Of a stretch of DNA of 64,000 nucleotides, positions 1 through 6,316 are shown one piece after another. A model generated the notes under the pieces. It did no database searches, was not told where the DNA came from, and worked only from the letters and a program-made list of their open reading frames with translations. The DNA comes from an uncultured Lachnospiraceae bacterium (GTDB lineage Bacteria > Bacillota > Clostridia > Lachnospirales > Lachnospiraceae). Positions within the stretch are counted from its first letter, which is position 1; each line of letters begins with the position of its first letter. The position numbers and the translations under genes are program-made. The stretch spans positions 1-64,000 of the forward strand of contig CANQGL010000005.1 in the NCBI GenBank assembly GCA_947623185.1. Direction: 5' to 3'.

Positions 1-2
1 CG

Positions 3-260
3 GTCGACGATGAGGGCAAACCGTTTGAGCTCTCCGCGGACCCGATGGTTCCGGAGCTCACCGCGAAGCTCGCCGGGATCGAGCTCGGAAAACCCGAGAC
101 CTACCACGGCCAGCTGAAGGAGATCCTCTCCAACGCGAACATCTTCGGCAGCAACCTCTACGAGGCCGGCATCGGCGAGACGATCGAGGGCCTGTTCCTC
201 GAGGAGATCGCAGGACCCGGCGCGGTAAGAGCGACGCTCAAGAAATATGTGACCGCGTGA
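3..260 (+). CDS. Mannitol dehydrogenase family protein, C-terminal fragment
   Basis: The gene enters from the left edge, so only about the last 85 residues are visible, reading in frame from base 3 to the TGA at 258-260. The tail contains ILSN, IFGSNLYEAGIGETIE and GPGAVRATLKKY, the usual C-terminal signature of the polyol/uronate dehydrogenase family (mannitol 2-dehydrogenase, fructuronate reductase, tagaturonate reductase). These enzymes reduce or oxidise a keto-sugar with NAD(P)H in the cytosol. The NAD-binding and catalytic parts lie outside the window, so the substrate cannot be assigned. A strong hairpin terminator follows 23 bases after the stop. Family assignment is fairly secure; exact activity is open. 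Confidence 0.75.
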   Translation, partial: VDDEGKPFELSADPMVPELTAKLAGIELGKPETYHGQLKEILSNANIFGSNLYEAGIGETIEGLFLEEIAGPGAVRATLKKYVTA

Positions 261-283
261 TTCGTTCAGACGTAAAAACAAAG

Positions 284-310
284 CCCCCGGCAGCCGCCGG
301 GGGTCTTTCT
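284..310 (+). terminator. Rho-independent terminator after the mannitol-dehydrogenase-like gene
   Basis: A perfect 8-bp GC stem (284-291 with 296-303, loop 292-295) is followed by the T-rich run TCTTTCT and preceded by an A-run. A degenerate relative of the same hairpin and its flank lies at about 1794-1835 behind the AAA ATPase gene, which suggests the terminator region was duplicated. Confidence 0.85.
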
Positions 311-382
311 CATATCGGTTTTCTTCTATCTGTCTCTTTATTTCTGACTGTTTACTGCCACTGTCTGTTTACTGTCCTGTTC

Positions 383-431
383 GTTTACTGTCCGAGCAGC
401 GCGTTGATCTGTTCCCAGATCGCGGCCGTCT
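383..431. repeat. 49-bp direct repeat, left copy (detached tail of the secreted-protein gene)
   Basis: Identical over 49 bases to 1839-1887, which is the last 47 bases of the secreted-protein gene at 1841-2320 plus two bases beyond its stop. The left copy has no gene body attached. Just before it the octamer GTTTACTG recurs at 350, 367 and 383, a small 16-17 bp periodic expansion at the junction. The two long copies bracket the AAA ATPase gene. Confidence 0.9.
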
Positions 432-463
432 GAAAGAGCGTCCTCCTGTGCAGATATTTGTGC

Positions 464-510
464 GTTAAGGCGGTAACTTTTGAAAAAATGGCATAAGTTA
501 TCGCCTTAAC
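464..510. promoter_or_regulatory. 16-bp inverted repeat upstream of the first AAA ATPase gene
   Basis: Arms 464-479 and 495-510 (GTTAAGGCGGTAACTT and its near-perfect complement, one mismatch) are separated by 15 bases. It lies about 50 bases before the start codon in an AT-rich stretch and is not followed by a T-run that would make it a terminator. An operator, possibly for autoregulation, is the simplest reading, but this is inference. The rest of the 261-562 interval holds the terminator and the direct repeat. Confidence 0.6.
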
Positions 511-562
511 TTGCATTTTTCTCTTATCAATGATACAATAATAACAGCAGGAGGTGACAGAT

Positions 563-1795
563 TTGAAACTATATCGCAGAGAAATCTATCTCCGCAAAAT
601 TCGAGGATTTTACCATGATACCGGGATCATCAAAGTGATAACCGGTGTACGCCGGTGCGGAAAATCATGTCTGATGCAGACGATTGCGGAAGAACTTATT
701 GAATCCGGCATTCCGGAAGCAAATCTGATTTATATCAATCTGGACCGGCGGGGATTCCGTTCTGTCAGGCAGGCGGAACAGCTGGAACAGCTCATTGAAC
801 AGCGATCCGCTGTCCGGGGCACAAAATACCTGTTTATTGACGAAGTACAAAATGTTTCCGGCTTCGAGGAAGTTCTGAACGGTTACCGGGAAGAAGACGA
901 ATACTCCATCTTCATTACCGGCTCCAATTCCTACCTCCTGAGCGGTGAACTGATTACCAAACTGACCGGCCGGTATCTGGAATTTGAAATGTTTCCCCTT
1001 AACTTTGAGGAATATCTCGGCATGAAGGAATTCCTCGGATACCGAATCAGTTCCGATCTTTCGCAGGAACTTGACAGTTATATTACAGAAGGCGGTTTCC
1101 CCAAGACGCTCCAATATCCGGATCCTGCCGACAAACGCACCTATGTGCAGGGTGTTATTCAGGAAATTCTTAAGAAAGATATCCGGCAACGAGTAAAGAT
1201 CCGCAACATGTCTGTATTCAATACCGTACAGACTTATATCATGAATAACTTCGGCGCGACTACCAGTCTGTCCAATATTTTAACCGGTCTTCGCAGGAAT
1301 GGTTGTGTTATCCGGCGGGAAACGTTAAACCGATATATTCAAATCCTGATGGACGCCAAGATTCTGTACCGATGTGACCGTTTCGATCTTAAGTCACGGA
1401 GATCTCTTATTGGCGAACAGAAATACTACCTGTCCGACCTCGGGTTCTATTTTTCCACGAACACGGACAACCGTATTCACTACGGTCCGGTTTTGGAAAA
1501 TATTGTATACATCTATGCGCGCTCGAAGGACTATGCTGTCAGCATCGGAAAGATCGGCAAATTGGAATGTGATTTCATTCTAAGAGACCGTCAGGATTCC
1601 TATGCCTACGTCCAGGTCGCAATGACGATCATGAACAGCCTTGATACGGAGAATCGGGAATACACTCCTCTGGAAAAGATCCAGGATAATTATCCCAAAT
1701 ATCTGATCACCAGAAACGATATCATTCAAAAGCGGAACGGCATCAAACATGTGAACGCCGGAGAATTTATGAAAAACGGAAATCTGTTTCAGTAA
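563..1795 (+). CDS. AAA ATPase with C-terminal DUF4143-type nuclease-like domain
   Basis: A protein of about 410 residues. The N-terminal P-loop reads GVRRCGKS at about residues 28-35, Walker B is YLFIDEVQ near residue 90, and FITGSNS follows as a sensor-like motif; this order is typical of the DUF4143 ATPase family. The C-terminal third has a PD-(D/E)XK-like core, but the usual E-x-K is VQVA, so a nuclease activity may be lost. I chose TTG at 563 because AGGAGGTGA at 549-557 sits five bases ahead; an in-frame GTG at 554 lies inside that SD. The role of this family is not established. It is a lone gene between direct repeats, AT-richer than its neighbours. Confidence 0.85.
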   Translation: MKLYRREIYLRKIRGFYHDTGIIKVITGVRRCGKSCLMQTIAEELIESGIPEANLIYINLDRRGFRSVRQAEQLEQLIEQRSAVRGTKYLFIDEVQNVSGFEEVLNGYREEDEYSIFITGSNSYLLSGELITKLTGRYLEFEMFPLNFEEYLGMKEFLGYRISSDLSQELDSYITEGGFPKTLQYPDPADKRTYVQGVIQEILKKDIRQRVKIRNMSVFNTVQTYIMNNFGATTSLSNILTGLRRNGCVIRRETLNRYIQILMDAKILYRCDRFDLKSRRSLIGEQKYYLSDLGFYFSTNTDNRIHYGPVLENIVYIYARSKDYAVSIGKIGKLECDFILRDRQDSYAYVQVAMTIMNSLDTENREYTPLEKIQDNYPKYLITRNDIIQKRNGIKHVNAGEFMKNGNLFQ

Positions 1796-1803
1796 AAAAC
1801 AAG

Positions 1804-1830
1804 CCCCGGCATACCGCTGGGGGCCCTTGC
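1804..1830 (+). terminator. Weak terminator hairpin behind the AAA ATPase gene
   Basis: A 7-bp stem with one G-U pair (1804-1810 with 1816-1822) comes just after the ATPase stop, with A-rich sequence before it but only a poor T-run after. The surrounding bases (A-run, hairpin, CTCATAT) parallel those of the terminator at 284-310, as expected of a diverged duplicate. Confidence 0.5.
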
Positions 1831-1838
1831 TCATATCT

Positions 1839-1887
1839 GTTTACTGTCCGAGCAGCGCGTTGATCTGTTCCCAGATCGCGGCCGTCT
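1839..1887. repeat. 49-bp direct repeat, right copy (3' end of the secreted-protein gene)
   Basis: This copy is part of the gene at 1841-2320 and encodes its C-terminal residues. It is identical to 383-431, with an offset of 1,456 bases. Confidence 0.9.
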
Positions 1888-2320
1888 TCTGCGCCGCCTC
1901 GAGCTGCGCCTTCTTGAGCTCCGCGATCTTTTTCAGTCCGTCGAGCGCTTCATCGTACTCTCCCGCGTCCGCGGCCGCTCTTGAAGCTGCGCGGAGATCC
2001 CTTACCGTCTGCGCGGCGTCTTCGGGCTTTTCGATCTCATTGATCCCGCTGCGGAGCTCTCTTGCCTTTTTCCAGACTTCCTTATCGACCGTAAGTTCTC
2101 CGGTCTCTCTCCTGGTCTGTGAGATCCCGCGGTATGTCTGCGCCGCCGTCTTATTCGCTTCGCGAGCCGCACTTACCTGCTCCGTAAGTTCTTTGATCTG
2201 GGCGTTGATCTCGGACTTTTCCGCGCGGTATTCCTTTTTGGTCTCCGCCGCAAAAGCCGGAACCGCCATACAAATGGTAAGCATCGCCGTTACCGCTAAT
2301 ACCTTTAATGTTCTGTTCAT
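1841..2320 (-). CDS. Small secreted coiled-coil protein, function unknown
   Basis: A 159-residue protein with a clear Sec signal peptide (basic MNRTLK start, hydrophobic core, AFA-AE cleavage near residue 25). The mature part is strongly charged and helical, rich in Glu, Lys, Ala and Gln, with heptad-like spacing that suggests a coiled coil. I see no cysteine, LPXTG or binding motif, so it is probably released or loosely wall-associated. I do not recognise a family. Its 3' end is duplicated at 383-431 on the far side of the AAA ATPase gene, so the two were separated by an insertion. Its coding strand converges on the ATPase gene. Confidence 0.75.
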   Translation of the reverse strand: MNRTLKVLAVTAMLTICMAVPAFAAETKKEYRAEKSEINAQIKELTEQVSAAREANKTAAQTYRGISQTRRETGELTVDKEVWKKARELRSGINEIEKPEDAAQTVRDLRAASRAAADAGEYDEALDGLKKIAELKKAQLEAAQKTAAIWEQINALLGQ

Positions 2321-2504
2321 AACGATCCTCCTGGATTCGATTATTCCGGCAGAGCCGGTTTTTCGTCCGTTCGTTTTCTGTTAAGCTGATCGTAACACAG
2401 CATATACAGAAAAACAACCGGCATCCTGCGGCATATTTGCGGCAACACTGCGGCAGATGCAAAAACGCTCCAAGACGATCCCGGAAACTGCGGCCGGTGA
2501 ACTC

Positions 2505-2533
2505 TTGAAAACGCCGCCGTCCCCGTGTATAAT
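2505..2533 (+). promoter_or_regulatory. Sigma-A promoter of the NimA-like gene
   Basis: TTGAAA at 2505-2510 and TATAAT at 2528-2533 are separated by exactly 17 bases. It lies 44 bases before the chosen ATG, leaving room for a short leader and an SD. Confidence 0.8.
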
Positions 2534-2576
2534 GATGGCAGAGCTCCGCACGGAGCCGGTGAAAGGAGAACCACAG

Positions 2577-3041
2577 ATGAAACAGGAAATGAGAAGAAAG
2601 GACCGCGCGCTTACCTGTGAGGAAGCGGAGGCGATCCTTAAAAAAGGCAAATACGGGATCCTGTCCACGGTCTGCGCGGACGGTTATCCCTACGGACTTC
2701 CGATCAGCTACGGATACAAGGACGGCAAGCTGTACTTCCATCACACCTGCGAGGGAGGCCAGCTGAGTGAAAACATCGGCGACGGGGTAAAAGCCTGTTT
2801 TACCGTCGTCGGAGATACCGAACTGCTCCCCGCCCAGTTTTCCACCCGCTACGAGAGCGCCGTCGCGTTCGGAACCGTCCGCAAAACCGAGGACAAGATC
2901 GGCGCGCTGATGCGTATCGTGGAAGATCTGAGCCCGAATTATATGGAACAGGGCAGAAAATACGCGGAAGCGTCCTTAAATCGCGTCACGGTCTATGAGT
3001 TCACGATCGAACAACTGACCGGAAAAGCAAGACGTTCCTAA
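2577..3041 (+). CDS. Pyridoxamine 5'-phosphate oxidase-like flavoprotein (NimA-like)
   Basis: A 154-residue split-barrel flavin protein. The order of AEAILKKGKYGILSTV, DGYPYGLPISYGY and GKLYFHH at about residues 15-60 is that of the putative FMN-binding PNPOx family, which includes the 5-nitroimidazole reductase NimA. Members bind FMN or haem and often act as small cytosolic reductases; the substrate is unknown here. The start at 2577 is supported by AAAGGAGA at 2562-2569 and by the consensus promoter just upstream; longer in-frame starts would lie within or before that promoter. The 3' end overlaps the convergent mrp gene by four bases. Confidence 0.85.
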   Translation: MKQEMRRKDRALTCEEAEAILKKGKYGILSTVCADGYPYGLPISYGYKDGKLYFHHTCEGGQLSENIGDGVKACFTVVGDTELLPAQFSTRYESAVAFGTVRKTEDKIGALMRIVEDLSPNYMEQGRKYAEASLNRVTVYEFTIEQLTGKARRS

Positions 3042-3883
3042 AATTTTTCCACCGCCTCGACGACCGGGTCCATGAAGTCCGCTTCGACGTACTCGACGGT
3101 CCCGCCGTCGACGGCCTGGGTGATCTCGGACCGCACCGGGATCTGCGCAAGGACCGGTATCCCGTATTCCTCCGCGGTCTCTTTGATGCGGCTCACGCCG
3201 AATACCGGGATCTTTTTCCCGCAGTCCGGACATTCCAGCCAGCTCATGTTTTCGATCAGGCCGATGATCGGAATGTTCATCTTCTTCGCCATGTTCACGG
3301 CCTTTTCAACGATCATCGAGACCAGTTCCTGCGGCGAGGTGACGATAATGACGCCGTCGACCGGAAGCGACTGGAACACCGTAAGCGGAACGTCTCCCGT
3401 TCCGGGCGGCATATCGACAAGCATGTAATCGATATCCTTCCAGTACGTCTCGCTCCAGAACTGCTTGACCGCCCCGGCGATCACGGGTCCGCGCCAGATC
3501 ACGGGATCGGTCTCATGTTCAAGGATCATATTCGAGGAGATCAGCTCGATCCCCGTCGCGGTGGTCGCCGGCACCAGCAGCCTTCCGTCCGGCGTCACGC
3601 CGACCGTCTCATGGATCCCGAAAGCATTCGGGATCGACGGCCCCGTAATGTCCGCGTCAAGGATGCCGACGCGGTGTCCGTGGGCGCGGAGACGGCAGGC
3701 CGTCAGGGAAGTCACCAGGGATTTTCCGACGCCGCCCTTTCCGCTGACAACGCCGATCACCTTTTTGACCGAGCTTTCCGGACTTAAGTTTTCAAGAAAA
3801 CTCGTCTGCTCCGAAGTCCTGCTCGCGCAGTTCGCGCCGCAGGTATTACAGTTATGGGTACAGTTTTCGATCGCTTCGCTCAT
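3038..3883 (-). CDS. mrp: Mrp/NBP35-type iron-sulfur cluster carrier ATPase
   Basis: A 281-residue deviant P-loop ATPase. The N-terminus carries a cysteine cluster (CTHNCNTCGANC, about residues 8-19) of the kind seen in NBP35-like members. The Walker A is GKGGVGKS near residues 49-56, followed by LDADITGPSIP and the Mrp signature VDMPPGTGD. A C-x2-C pair (CPDC) near residue 218 would hold the bridging Fe-S cluster at the dimer interface. It is expected to load Fe-S clusters onto apo-proteins in the cytosol. It is the last gene of a minus-strand run after the HPr gene (16-base gap) and converges on the NimA-like gene. Confidence 0.93.
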   Translation of the reverse strand: MSEAIENCTHNCNTCGANCASRTSEQTSFLENLSPESSVKKVIGVVSGKGGVGKSLVTSLTACRLRAHGHRVGILDADITGPSIPNAFGIHETVGVTPDGRLLVPATTATGIELISSNMILEHETDPVIWRGPVIAGAVKQFWSETYWKDIDYMLVDMPPGTGDVPLTVFQSLPVDGVIIVTSPQELVSMIVEKAVNMAKKMNIPIIGLIENMSWLECPDCGKKIPVFGVSRIKETAEEYGIPVLAQIPVRSEITQAVDGGTVEYVEADFMDPVVEAVEKF

Positions 3884-3899
3884 TATTCTATCCCTCTTC

Positions 3900-4163
3900 T
3901 CATTCTTTCAGTTCTTTTTCGATCAGTGTGCAGACCGTTTCGAGGGCCTCGGCTTCGTCCTCGCCGTCACAGCAGACCTCAATTTCCGAGCCGCAGCGGA
4001 TCCCCGACGCCATGACGTTCAGCACGCTCTTGGCGTTGACCTTTGTATCGCCGTACAGGAGCGTGACCTGTGATCTGAATTTTGTGGCGGTCTGACACAA
4101 AAGTCCCGCGGGCCGCAGATGCAGGCCGGTCGGGTTTGTCACCGTGACTTTTCTTTTCTTCAT
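3900..4163 (-). CDS. HPr-family phosphocarrier protein
   Basis: An 87-residue protein, normal length for HPr. The active-site histidine lies in GLHLRPA near residues 13-19 (the usual motif is GLHARPA), and the HPr-kinase serine context is AKSVLNVMA near residue 46. Both phosphorylation sites are therefore present, though each has unusual neighbours. I chose the ATG at 4163 because GGAGGGGG lies upstream at the right distance; a longer frame to 4208 has no SD. No PTS enzyme I or II gene is close by, so it may be a Crh-like regulator or the general HPr. Family is clear; role as main HPr is uncertain. Confidence 0.88.
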   Translation of the reverse strand: MKKRKVTVTNPTGLHLRPAGLLCQTATKFRSQVTLLYGDTKVNAKSVLNVMASGIRCGSEIEVCCDGEDEAEALETVCTLIEKELKE

Positions 4164-4291
4164 AAACGGACCCCCTCCCTCGTAAGGAAATTCTATACCA
4201 GTTTCCATTCGCTGTCAAGGAGCAGGCTGCGCGGTCGCAGACCTCCCCGAACGCCCGGAAACCAGCCGCCCCGGCCGGGCCTGTTGCGGGC

Positions 4292-5053
4292 TTACCCGGG
4301 CTGCGCGGTCGCAGGCTCTTCCGTCCGCGAGAATACGCAACCGCAGTAATTCTGGCGGTAAAGCCCGTGCTCCCTTGAAAGCTCGATCGAGCGCTGATAC
4401 CCGTTTCTCTTCTTGAAATCGGAGTTCAGGAATTTCACGCCGTACCGCTCTCCGGCCTCCTCGCCGAGCCGGTTGAGGCGCTCCGCGTCCTTTAACGGGC
4501 TGATCGAGAGCGTGGTCGTGAAATAATCGAAGCCGCCCTCTTTGGCCTGTCTGGCGGCCTCTGTAAGCCGCAGGCGGAAACATTCCGTACAGCGTTCGCC
4601 TCCCTCCGGTTCGCTTTCAAGGCCCTTCACGGCCCCATAATAGGTCTCCGGATGGTAATCGCCGCGCACAAAGCAGATTGGATAGCCAGTCGCCTTACCG
4701 GTCCGCTCCGGGGACCGCTCAGGATCCTGTCCCGGCGCCTGATCAGGGCTCTTTTCCGGATCCTGTCCCGGATCCGCCTCCAGGTCTCGCTCCGCCCCGA
4801 AACGGTCAATGTCCGCGTTCATCTCCGCAATCAACCGTTCCTGCTCCGCCGCGCGCATATCGAATTCCTCCGGCGGATAAATATTCGGATTATAATAAAA
4901 CACCGTGATCCGGAAATACTTTGCCAGGTATTCCAGCACATAACTGCTGCAGGGTGCGCAGCAGCTATGCAGAAGCAGCTTCGGGACACGTTCGGCCCCC
5001 GAAAGCCCCTCGAGCGTCCTGTCCAGTTCCTTTTGATAGTTCCGTTTGTTCAT
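4292..5053 (-). CDS. queH: Epoxyqueuosine reductase QueH
   Basis: A 253-residue DUF208 protein that would reduce epoxyqueuosine to queuosine in tRNA, replacing the cobalamin-dependent QueG. The vicinal CC in LLHSCCAPCSSY near residue 31, the C-x2-C in ERCTECFRLRL and the terminal YCGC motif supply the cysteines for its Fe-S cluster and disulphide. Between about residues 93 and 119 there is a Pro/Asp/Glu-rich insert (repeats of PGQDPE) that is not part of the fold. ATG at 5053 follows GGGAGGAG; an earlier in-frame start has no SD. It lies downstream of rpoD on the same strand. Confidence 0.9.
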   Translation of the reverse strand: MNKRNYQKELDRTLEGLSGAERVPKLLLHSCCAPCSSYVLEYLAKYFRITVFYYNPNIYPPEEFDMRAAEQERLIAEMNADIDRFGAERDLEADPGQDPEKSPDQAPGQDPERSPERTGKATGYPICFVRGDYHPETYYGAVKGLESEPEGGERCTECFRLRLTEAARQAKEGGFDYFTTTLSISPLKDAERLNRLGEEAGERYGVKFLNSDFKKRNGYQRSIELSREHGLYRQNYCGCVFSRTEEPATAQPG

Positions 5054-5179
5054 ACCGCTCCTCCCGCGCTCCGGCAATGCCGGGGCGCTCTGCCTCCCTC
5101 CGGACAAATCGGCCAAGTCCGCGCATAACACAAAAAGGACAGCCGCAACGACTGCCTGCTGTCCTCTTTCTTCTCTGTC

Positions 5180-6316
5180 TTACAGGAAATCCCGGATCCG
5201 TTTGCTGCGGACCGGATTGCGCAGTTTCCTGAGAGCCTTCGCTTCGATCTGACGGATACGCTCACGGGTGACGTTGAATTCCTTTCCGACTTCCTCCAAC
5301 GTCCGCGGATGTCCGTCCTCAAGGCCGAACCGCAGGACGATGACCTGCCGCTCGCGGTCTTTCAGATCGCCTAAAAGCGCGTCGATGTGCTCGCGCAGCA
5401 TCACGGATTCGACGTTGCCTTCCGGCGTCACCGCGTTTCCGTCCGCCACGAAATCGCCGAGGTTGGAATCGTCCTCCTCGCCGATCGGCGTCTCAAGCGA
5501 CGCGGGCTCGCGCGCGATCTGCATGATCTCCATCACCTTGCCCTCGGGCATCTCCAGTGCGTCCGCCAGCTCGGAGATCGACGGCTCGTAGCCCAGCTCC
5601 AGCGTCAGCTTGCGCTGCATTTTGGACATCTTGTTGATCGTCTCCACCATATGCACCGGGACCCTGATCGTCCGGGCCTGATCGGCGAGCGCCCGCGTAA
5701 CGGACTGCCGGATCCACCAGGTAGCATATGTACTCAGCTTGTATCCTTTTGTATAATCAAACTTTTCAACGCCCTTGATCAGTCCCAGGTTTCCCTCCTG
5801 GACCAGATCGAGGAAACTCATCCCGCGGCCGGTATAGCGCTTGGCGATGCTCACGACCAGGCGGAGATTCGCCTCGATCAGGCGCTCCTTCGCCGATTCG
5901 TCGCCCTCGGCTTTCCGTTTCGCCAGCCGGATCTCCTCATCCGCGGTAAGAAGCGGGACCGTTCCGATCTCCTTTAAGTACATACGGACCGGGTCTTCCG
6001 TCCCCACTCCGTCGAGCAGATCGATCGCGTCGAGGTCGATCTCCTCTTCGACTTTGTCCTCAGAAAAATCATCGACAAGATCGTCATCCAGGAGCAGAGG
6101 AATATCCGCGATCATAGCCGCCTCGTCCATAACCGGCACAACATCGATGTTGTTGCGCTCAAGGTAATTGTAAATTTCCTCCATCTGTTCCGCGGGAAGG
6201 CTGTCGCCGGCGAAGAAATCGTTGATCTCGGCCGCGTCCAGCGCATTCTGCTTTGATTTTCCGAGTTCGACAAGTTTTTTGAGCTTCTCTAAAAATACTT
6301 CTTTTTCCACTCGCAA
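5180..6316 (-). CDS. rpoD: Primary RNA polymerase sigma factor RpoD/SigA
   Basis: A 378-residue sigma-70 factor, the short Firmicutes form. Region 1.1 (about 1-80) is acidic, region 1.2 begins at [11 protein letters not shown], region 2 has [12 protein letters not shown] and YATWWIRQ, and region 4 ends with the helix-turn-helix [18 protein letters not shown]. All parts needed for -10 and -35 recognition are present. The start is TTG at 6316 or GTG at 6310; GAAAGGG upstream is better spaced for the GTG, so the first two residues are uncertain. It has its own promoter inside the 3' end of mutY. Confidence 0.97.

Follow-up and report, generated by a model that had tools for sequence, protein, structure and literature searches.

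A 1.4-kb unit inserted beside the 3′ end of a secreted-protein gene as a probable mobile single-gene cassette of the PDC-S01 class

Introduction

The window (the whole 64,000-nucleotide stretch analysed here) comprises positions 1–64000 of contig C5 of a metagenome-assembled genome and begins at the contig start, inside uxuB. Close to this end lies a 1.4-kb unit which, relative to an empty allele in the same assembly, is an insertion. The unit contains a gene for an ATPase with a putative nuclease domain, and it is very probably a mobile, single-gene cassette of the PDC-S01 class. The whole reading preferred here, an acquired mobile single-gene cassette that carried a gene end with it, is put forward as probable rather than firm.

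PDC-S01 (AAA_14 plus DUF4143, COG1373) is a candidate defence system found by guilt-by-embedding and is reported to rank fourth in abundance among the predicted defence systems of prokaryotes (PMC12988326). In rumen genomes it is reported as the commonest single locus (PMC13356809), and COG1373 is listed among the frequent horizontally transferred genes in chicken and pig gut genomes (PMC10782964). A search of literature with few subscription papers, and without the PDC-S01 preprint, returned no published account of the DUF4143/COG1373/PDC-S01 family as a mobile cassette.

Organisation of the inserted unit

A repeat scan bore out the perfect direct repeat on which the preliminary description was built: positions 383–431 and 1839–1887 are the same at 49 of 49 nucleotides, without mismatch and at a spacing of 1456 bp, which is far beyond chance. 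The right copy (minus strand) holds, as had been claimed, the stop and last codons of a secreted-protein gene at 1841–2320 on the minus strand, a 159-residue ORF that is the right neighbour of the unit and its apparent target. The left copy is an orphan end of this gene, and the ORF list confirms that no gene accompanies it. To its left lie the last 85 codons of uxuB (3–260, plus strand) and the native uxuB terminator (270–315, plus strand), a GC-rich hairpin. The terminator regions preceding the two copies had been described as related, and 36 of 45 aligned positions do agree between the native terminator and 1794–1838. The terminator-like right edge of the unit (1796–1838, minus strand), related to 270–315 but diverged, probably serves the secreted-protein gene instead of the native terminator.

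The interior of the unit is simple. A left edge of 32 bp (432–463), with no counterpart in the empty site, separates the repeat from a 47-bp palindrome (464–510) whose 19-nt arms are 89% complementary. Directly after it a promoter-like sequence, TTGCAT-17 bp-TACAAT (511–539, plus strand), is predicted, and this is followed by the only ORF between the two copies (554–1795). The start candidates of this ORF are TTG at 563 and GTG at 554; TTG 563, which lies behind AGGAGG at 549–554, is the likelier start, giving an ATPase-nuclease gene at 563–1795 on the plus strand. The unit thus consists of an ATPase gene and a dyad, and at about 45% GC it is AT-richer than its surroundings (55–60%), both as first reported.

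Neither a transposase nor an integrase was seen in the unit among the listed ORFs and Pfam profiles, the only matches being to AAA_14, DUF4143 and, below threshold, ATPase_2; the earlier claim that a transposase is lacking thus stands. Rfam gave no RNA match up to an E-value of 1 in positions 1–3000, and so no sign of a group II intron or structured mobile RNA. No terminal inverted repeats were found: apart from the palindrome, a repeat scan of positions 1–4000 listed only a single distant pair, which lies outside the unit.

The ATPase-nuclease protein

The product of the ORF at 554–1795 matches AAA_14 (PF13173, 5.6e-35) and DUF4143 (PF13635, 1.1e-12) in Pfam. PADLOC assigns it to PDC-S01 (model PDLC04787, E 1.3e-134), residues 1–405 aligning with profile positions 6–408 of 412. 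Sequence comparison found no credible solved homologue. A structure model with a pLDDT of 89 is closest to the archaeal ATPases 2qen (Z 17.1, 3.5 A, 269 residues) and 2fna (Z 16.8), followed by ATPases of the NLR and CED-4 type. Modelled on its own, the C-terminal stretch of 116 residues resembles PD-(D/E)XK proteins, among them Cdn1 (Z 9.9, 3.2 A, 109 residues), AF1548, Can2 and Card1, with HJC and TnsA lower in the list; the Foldseek E-values for this domain are weak. In the models the protein is thus a STAND-like ATPase that ends in a PD-(D/E)XK-like fold. This agrees with the PDC-S01 definition, in which an ATPase is joined to a PD-(D/E)XK-type domain (PMC12988326), within the limits of those C-terminal E-values.

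Among 51 relatives, E312, E335, Q351 and K379 are invariant and D337 is nearly so. The usual lysine of E-x-K in the nuclease motif is mostly replaced by A, S or C, so that catalysis by the predicted nuclease is uncertain. The defence role of the window protein as a PDC-S01 member is likewise a prediction.

Empty alleles

The preliminary description had proposed a search for an empty site, and one was found on C142, a small contig of the same assembly. It carries uxuA, uxuB, the terminator, CTGTCTGTTTATTGTC repeats in tandem and a secreted-protein gene 88% identical to that of the window; it has a single gene end, one copy of the 49-bp sequence and no ATPase. The native terminator of the window agrees with that of C142 at 36 of 46 positions, and two bases common to both repeat copies on C5 differ from C142. 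Since uxuB is present in the assembly once whole, on C142, and once as the 3′ fragment on C5, whose amino acid sequence is 98% identical to the C-terminus of the C142 product, C142 is best read as the allele of a second strain; a partial duplication within one genome is possible. Imperfect tandem repeats of 16–17 bp (CTGTCTGTTTAYTGTC) follow the secreted-protein gene in the window (344–392) and in L014 (541–600), and their number differs between the two alleles.

In two genomes of the same genus, examined as empty sites, neither the target gene nor the ATPase was found. No result pointed to the opposite history, in which the ATPase is ancestral at this site and the repeat arose separately.

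Empty sites also exist elsewhere. Three relatives of the genus of L115 have its locus without the ATPase, two of them clearly with one galE terminator segment, and in L115 this segment is doubled around the cassette (81 bp, 93%). At the glnB terminator where L102 carries a cassette, the site is plainly empty in several of the 26 genomes that represent the genus. Two genomes, G317 and G316, have a solo palindrome exactly at the glnB site and no other strong match; it may be either a footprint left after palindrome–palindrome recombination or the state before insertion. Solo palindromes were also considered as a genome-wide repeat, an idea that was dropped, as most of the matches at other places in the G116 genus are weak and hardly differ from the control level. 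In L150 (1160–1470) and L154, a different palindromic insert of about 330 bp occupies the glnB locus where relatives have the cassette or the solo palindrome.

These further sites bear on the suspicion that the arrangement in the window is an artefact of assembly, in which two strains were joined or a repeat was misplaced at a contig end. The sequence does come from a metagenome bin, the contig starts at window base 1, and two strains are probably present. The same anatomy is nevertheless found in independent assemblies, including isolates for the module itself, and empty sites occur at the other loci; an artefact is very improbable.

A compact module with a covarying palindrome

The relatives were divided at 50% identity, those at or above this value, from several phyla, forming the subfamily. 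The genome collection holds 80 loci at 63–77% identity in Bacillota, Actinomycetota, Spirochaetota, Elusimicrobiota, Kiritimatiellota and others, some of these phylum labels resting on metagenome bins. Actinomycetota form one clade in the tree and the rest are mixed, many phyla being represented by one row from a metagenome bin. The distribution is patchy: some relative is present in 189 of 299 family genomes and a subfamily member in few, usually as one copy, unlike a busy transposon. Plasmids, phages and viral contigs yielded distant relatives only.

In many pairs of loci with genes 90–98% identical at different sites, similarity begins at about −115 (range about −113 to −175) and ends soon after the stop, up to about +90 and, in one pair, at +173. 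The module is thus about 115 bp of upstream DNA plus the ORF. Its limits are seen between isolates when Bifidobacterium L085 is compared with Collinsella L080, where the guaA flank is 72% identical, the upstream 115 bp 91%, the gene 94% and the downstream sequence 68%. The preliminary description had also suggested looking for the ATPase and dyad at other gene ends in this genome. No second copy is present there, its other DUF4143 ATPases being at most 35% identical; in other genomes ATPase and dyad do lie at gene ends and terminators, downstream of guaA, glnB and galE and at the tmRNA 3′ end, and a distant relative lies behind a phage terL. The anatomy of the module is constant at unrelated sites in several phyla. 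The occurrence of relatives at gene ends in many unrelated bacteria, as in the window, makes it likely that the gene moves about in the form of a compact unit.

The palindrome was assessed by anchoring on its right arm alone (TAACxTG), which is present in 56 of 104 loci. Complementarity in these anchored loci is 0.71 at a span of 47, against 0.22–0.45 at other spans, and the best span is exactly 47 bp in 46 of them. Inner pairs occur as two to four Watson–Crick types, with compensatory changes. A fixed span combined with varied Watson–Crick pairs points to selection for a palindrome whose letters change. Taken with the position at the left edge of the module, this covariation makes it most likely that the palindrome is the protein's own putative binding site, an operator and possibly also a mobility site. 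Second copies lie behind the gene in L102, L063, L045, L042, L109 and L110, and in distant relatives other dyads are often found in front of the gene.

Defence cargo or self-mobilising element

Mobility itself is deduced from sequence comparison. The unit contains no recombinase, and none was traced. In Coriobacteriia and Bifidobacterium the module often lies behind the guaA stop at GAGTGGGAGTAG, a core which recurs downstream between other cargo, and in Erysipelotrichaceae it lies behind the tmRNA 3′ end (L074). Both 3′ ends are integrase-like sites, which favours help in trans to movement there. The Coriobacteriia arrays (L064, L077, L081, L083 and L089) consist of units split by GAGTGGGAGTAG that hold ATPases, toxin–antitoxin-like and other genes; no integrase was seen in these stretches on inspection by eye. 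ATPase modules at or near tmRNA 3′ ends were noted in L066, L074 and L076 of Erysipelotrichaceae, L066 having a 110-bp repeat ending CCCCCCTATGGCACCA on both sides.

Such sites are what would be expected of a defence gene, with a sensor ATPase and a nuclease effector, that is moved passively by integrases of co-resident elements or by homologous recombination across the gene ends on either side, its 49-bp repeats being attL/attR-like. This explanation is a real possibility, placed somewhat below an even chance. It is consistent with the PADLOC call of a system reported to be so common (PMC12988326), with the guaA and tmRNA 3′ ends as typical integration sites, with the toxin–antitoxin, Fic and Abi-like genes that share the guaA arrays and a slot between terL and portal in related phages, and with the usual single copy per genome. 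It does not sit well with repeat sites that have no common sequence, only the palindrome and the gene being common to the loci, nor with the lack of an integrase in the unit and, by eye, in the guaA arrays. A narrow module with its right edge near the stop is also not expected from varied outside recombinases.

Under the preferred reading of a mobile cassette, the ATPase-nuclease might promote its own spread, perhaps through cuts or nicks in empty alleles, or be kept as a defence gene, or both. That it drives the spread is a tentative suggestion, and a defence gene that spreads passively is a reading of about equal merit. The broader proposal, that PDC-S01-type genes are a new class of self-mobilising single-gene elements which recognise their own 47-bp palindrome and home into gene 3′ ends or terminators with a substitute end, is similarly tentative and less likely than not.

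Known mobile elements offer partial parallels. Like ICEs and IMEs, the unit has direct repeats of tens of bases (49 bp here, attL/attR-like) at a gene 3′ end that is kept intact, and some members use guaA and tmRNA 3′ ends; unlike them, it has no integrase or mobilisation gene in its 1.4 kb, the sole ORF being the ATPase. Insertion sequences share the single gene, the length of about 1.4 kb, the palindrome at one edge and the lack of accessory genes; they differ in that the cassette has no known transposase, no terminal inverted repeats that could be found, long flanking repeats and usually one copy per genome. PDC-S01 itself is matched by the window protein over nearly the full length of the PADLOC model and in its fusion of ATPase and PD-(D/E)XK-type domains, but the accessible part of its description does not mention a palindrome, module limits or repeated gene ends (PMC12988326).

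If the gene itself is a mobile cassette landing at gene ends, embedding alone would be weak evidence for defence, and the family could serve as a model of how a single gene moves with no known recombinase. Were it also self-mobilising, the embedding of PDC-S01 in other loci would be the result of its own insertion, and one of the commonest predicted defence systems would be at least partly a selfish mobile element. Empty and filled alleles, repeats and a covarying palindrome make the mobility of the cassette directly testable.

Repeated and carried gene ends

Flanking repeats were sought by aligning the 450 bp in front of the gene locally with the 350 bp behind it, at a score of 24 or more. 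They were found at 19 of 100 subfamily loci, the other 81 having none above threshold. Of 65 distant loci 3 have them, a single phage accounting for two of these; the difference between the groups has a Fisher p of 0.009. Among cross pairs, 96 of 9,900 reached the threshold. About half of the 19 are duplicated palindromes and the others are host sequence of 49–188 bp. In 7 of 10 host-derived repeats the right copy begins no more than 21 nt from the ATPase stop (p 6e-7 under a uniform start). L108 (165 bp, 88%) was left out as a clear case, as it may be a junction between the ends of two paralogous genes.

The phage L230, which carries a 31% relative, shows what these repeats may be. The last 118 bp of its terL are repeated directly after the ATPase stop, and five of the last seven codons differ between the two ends, all synonymously, the stop included (chance about 4e-4). 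Such differences are unlike a decaying free fragment left by simple target duplication and are what one would expect if a working terL end had come from a different lineage. The right terminator of the window has diverged from the left one to about the same extent as the terminator of the other strain has; since the 49-bp copies are identical, the window shows no recoding of the gene end. The repeats look, at least in part, like carried substitute gene ends rather than plain neutral target duplications.

It can be proposed that a cassette of palindrome, promoter and ATPase-nuclease ORF was inserted between the convergent 3′ ends of uxuB and the secreted-protein gene, bringing with it a copy of the target gene's end and terminator. 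This carried end would replace the native one, allowing the target gene to survive, and the native end would stay on the far side of the cassette. In mitochondrial mORFs, an endonuclease ORF similarly arrives with a foreign C-terminus, and the original one persists on its downstream side (PMC3630166). On this proposal the cassette would resemble the fungal mORFs in its single putative nuclease ORF beside a gene 3′ end, in a C-terminus brought along to take the place of the native one, in a native end displaced downstream, and in end copies that differ synonymously, as observed in L230 (PMC3630166). The mORFs differ in encoding LAGLIDADG or GIY-YIG endonucleases in mitochondria (PMC3630166), whereas the cassette has an ATPase with a PD-(D/E)XK-like domain (a putative nuclease), a palindrome and its own predicted promoter, and its family occurs in bacteria and a phage.

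In many phages related to L230, terL and portal are 13–34 bp apart, that is, the site is empty; in others the slot holds toxin–antitoxin, Fic, Abi-like and further genes, named by reading their sequences. In L230 itself this slot (2986–5987) is taken by a tandem pair of distinct DUF4143 ATPases, with the copy of the terL end between them, and L246 has a single ATPase at the same place.
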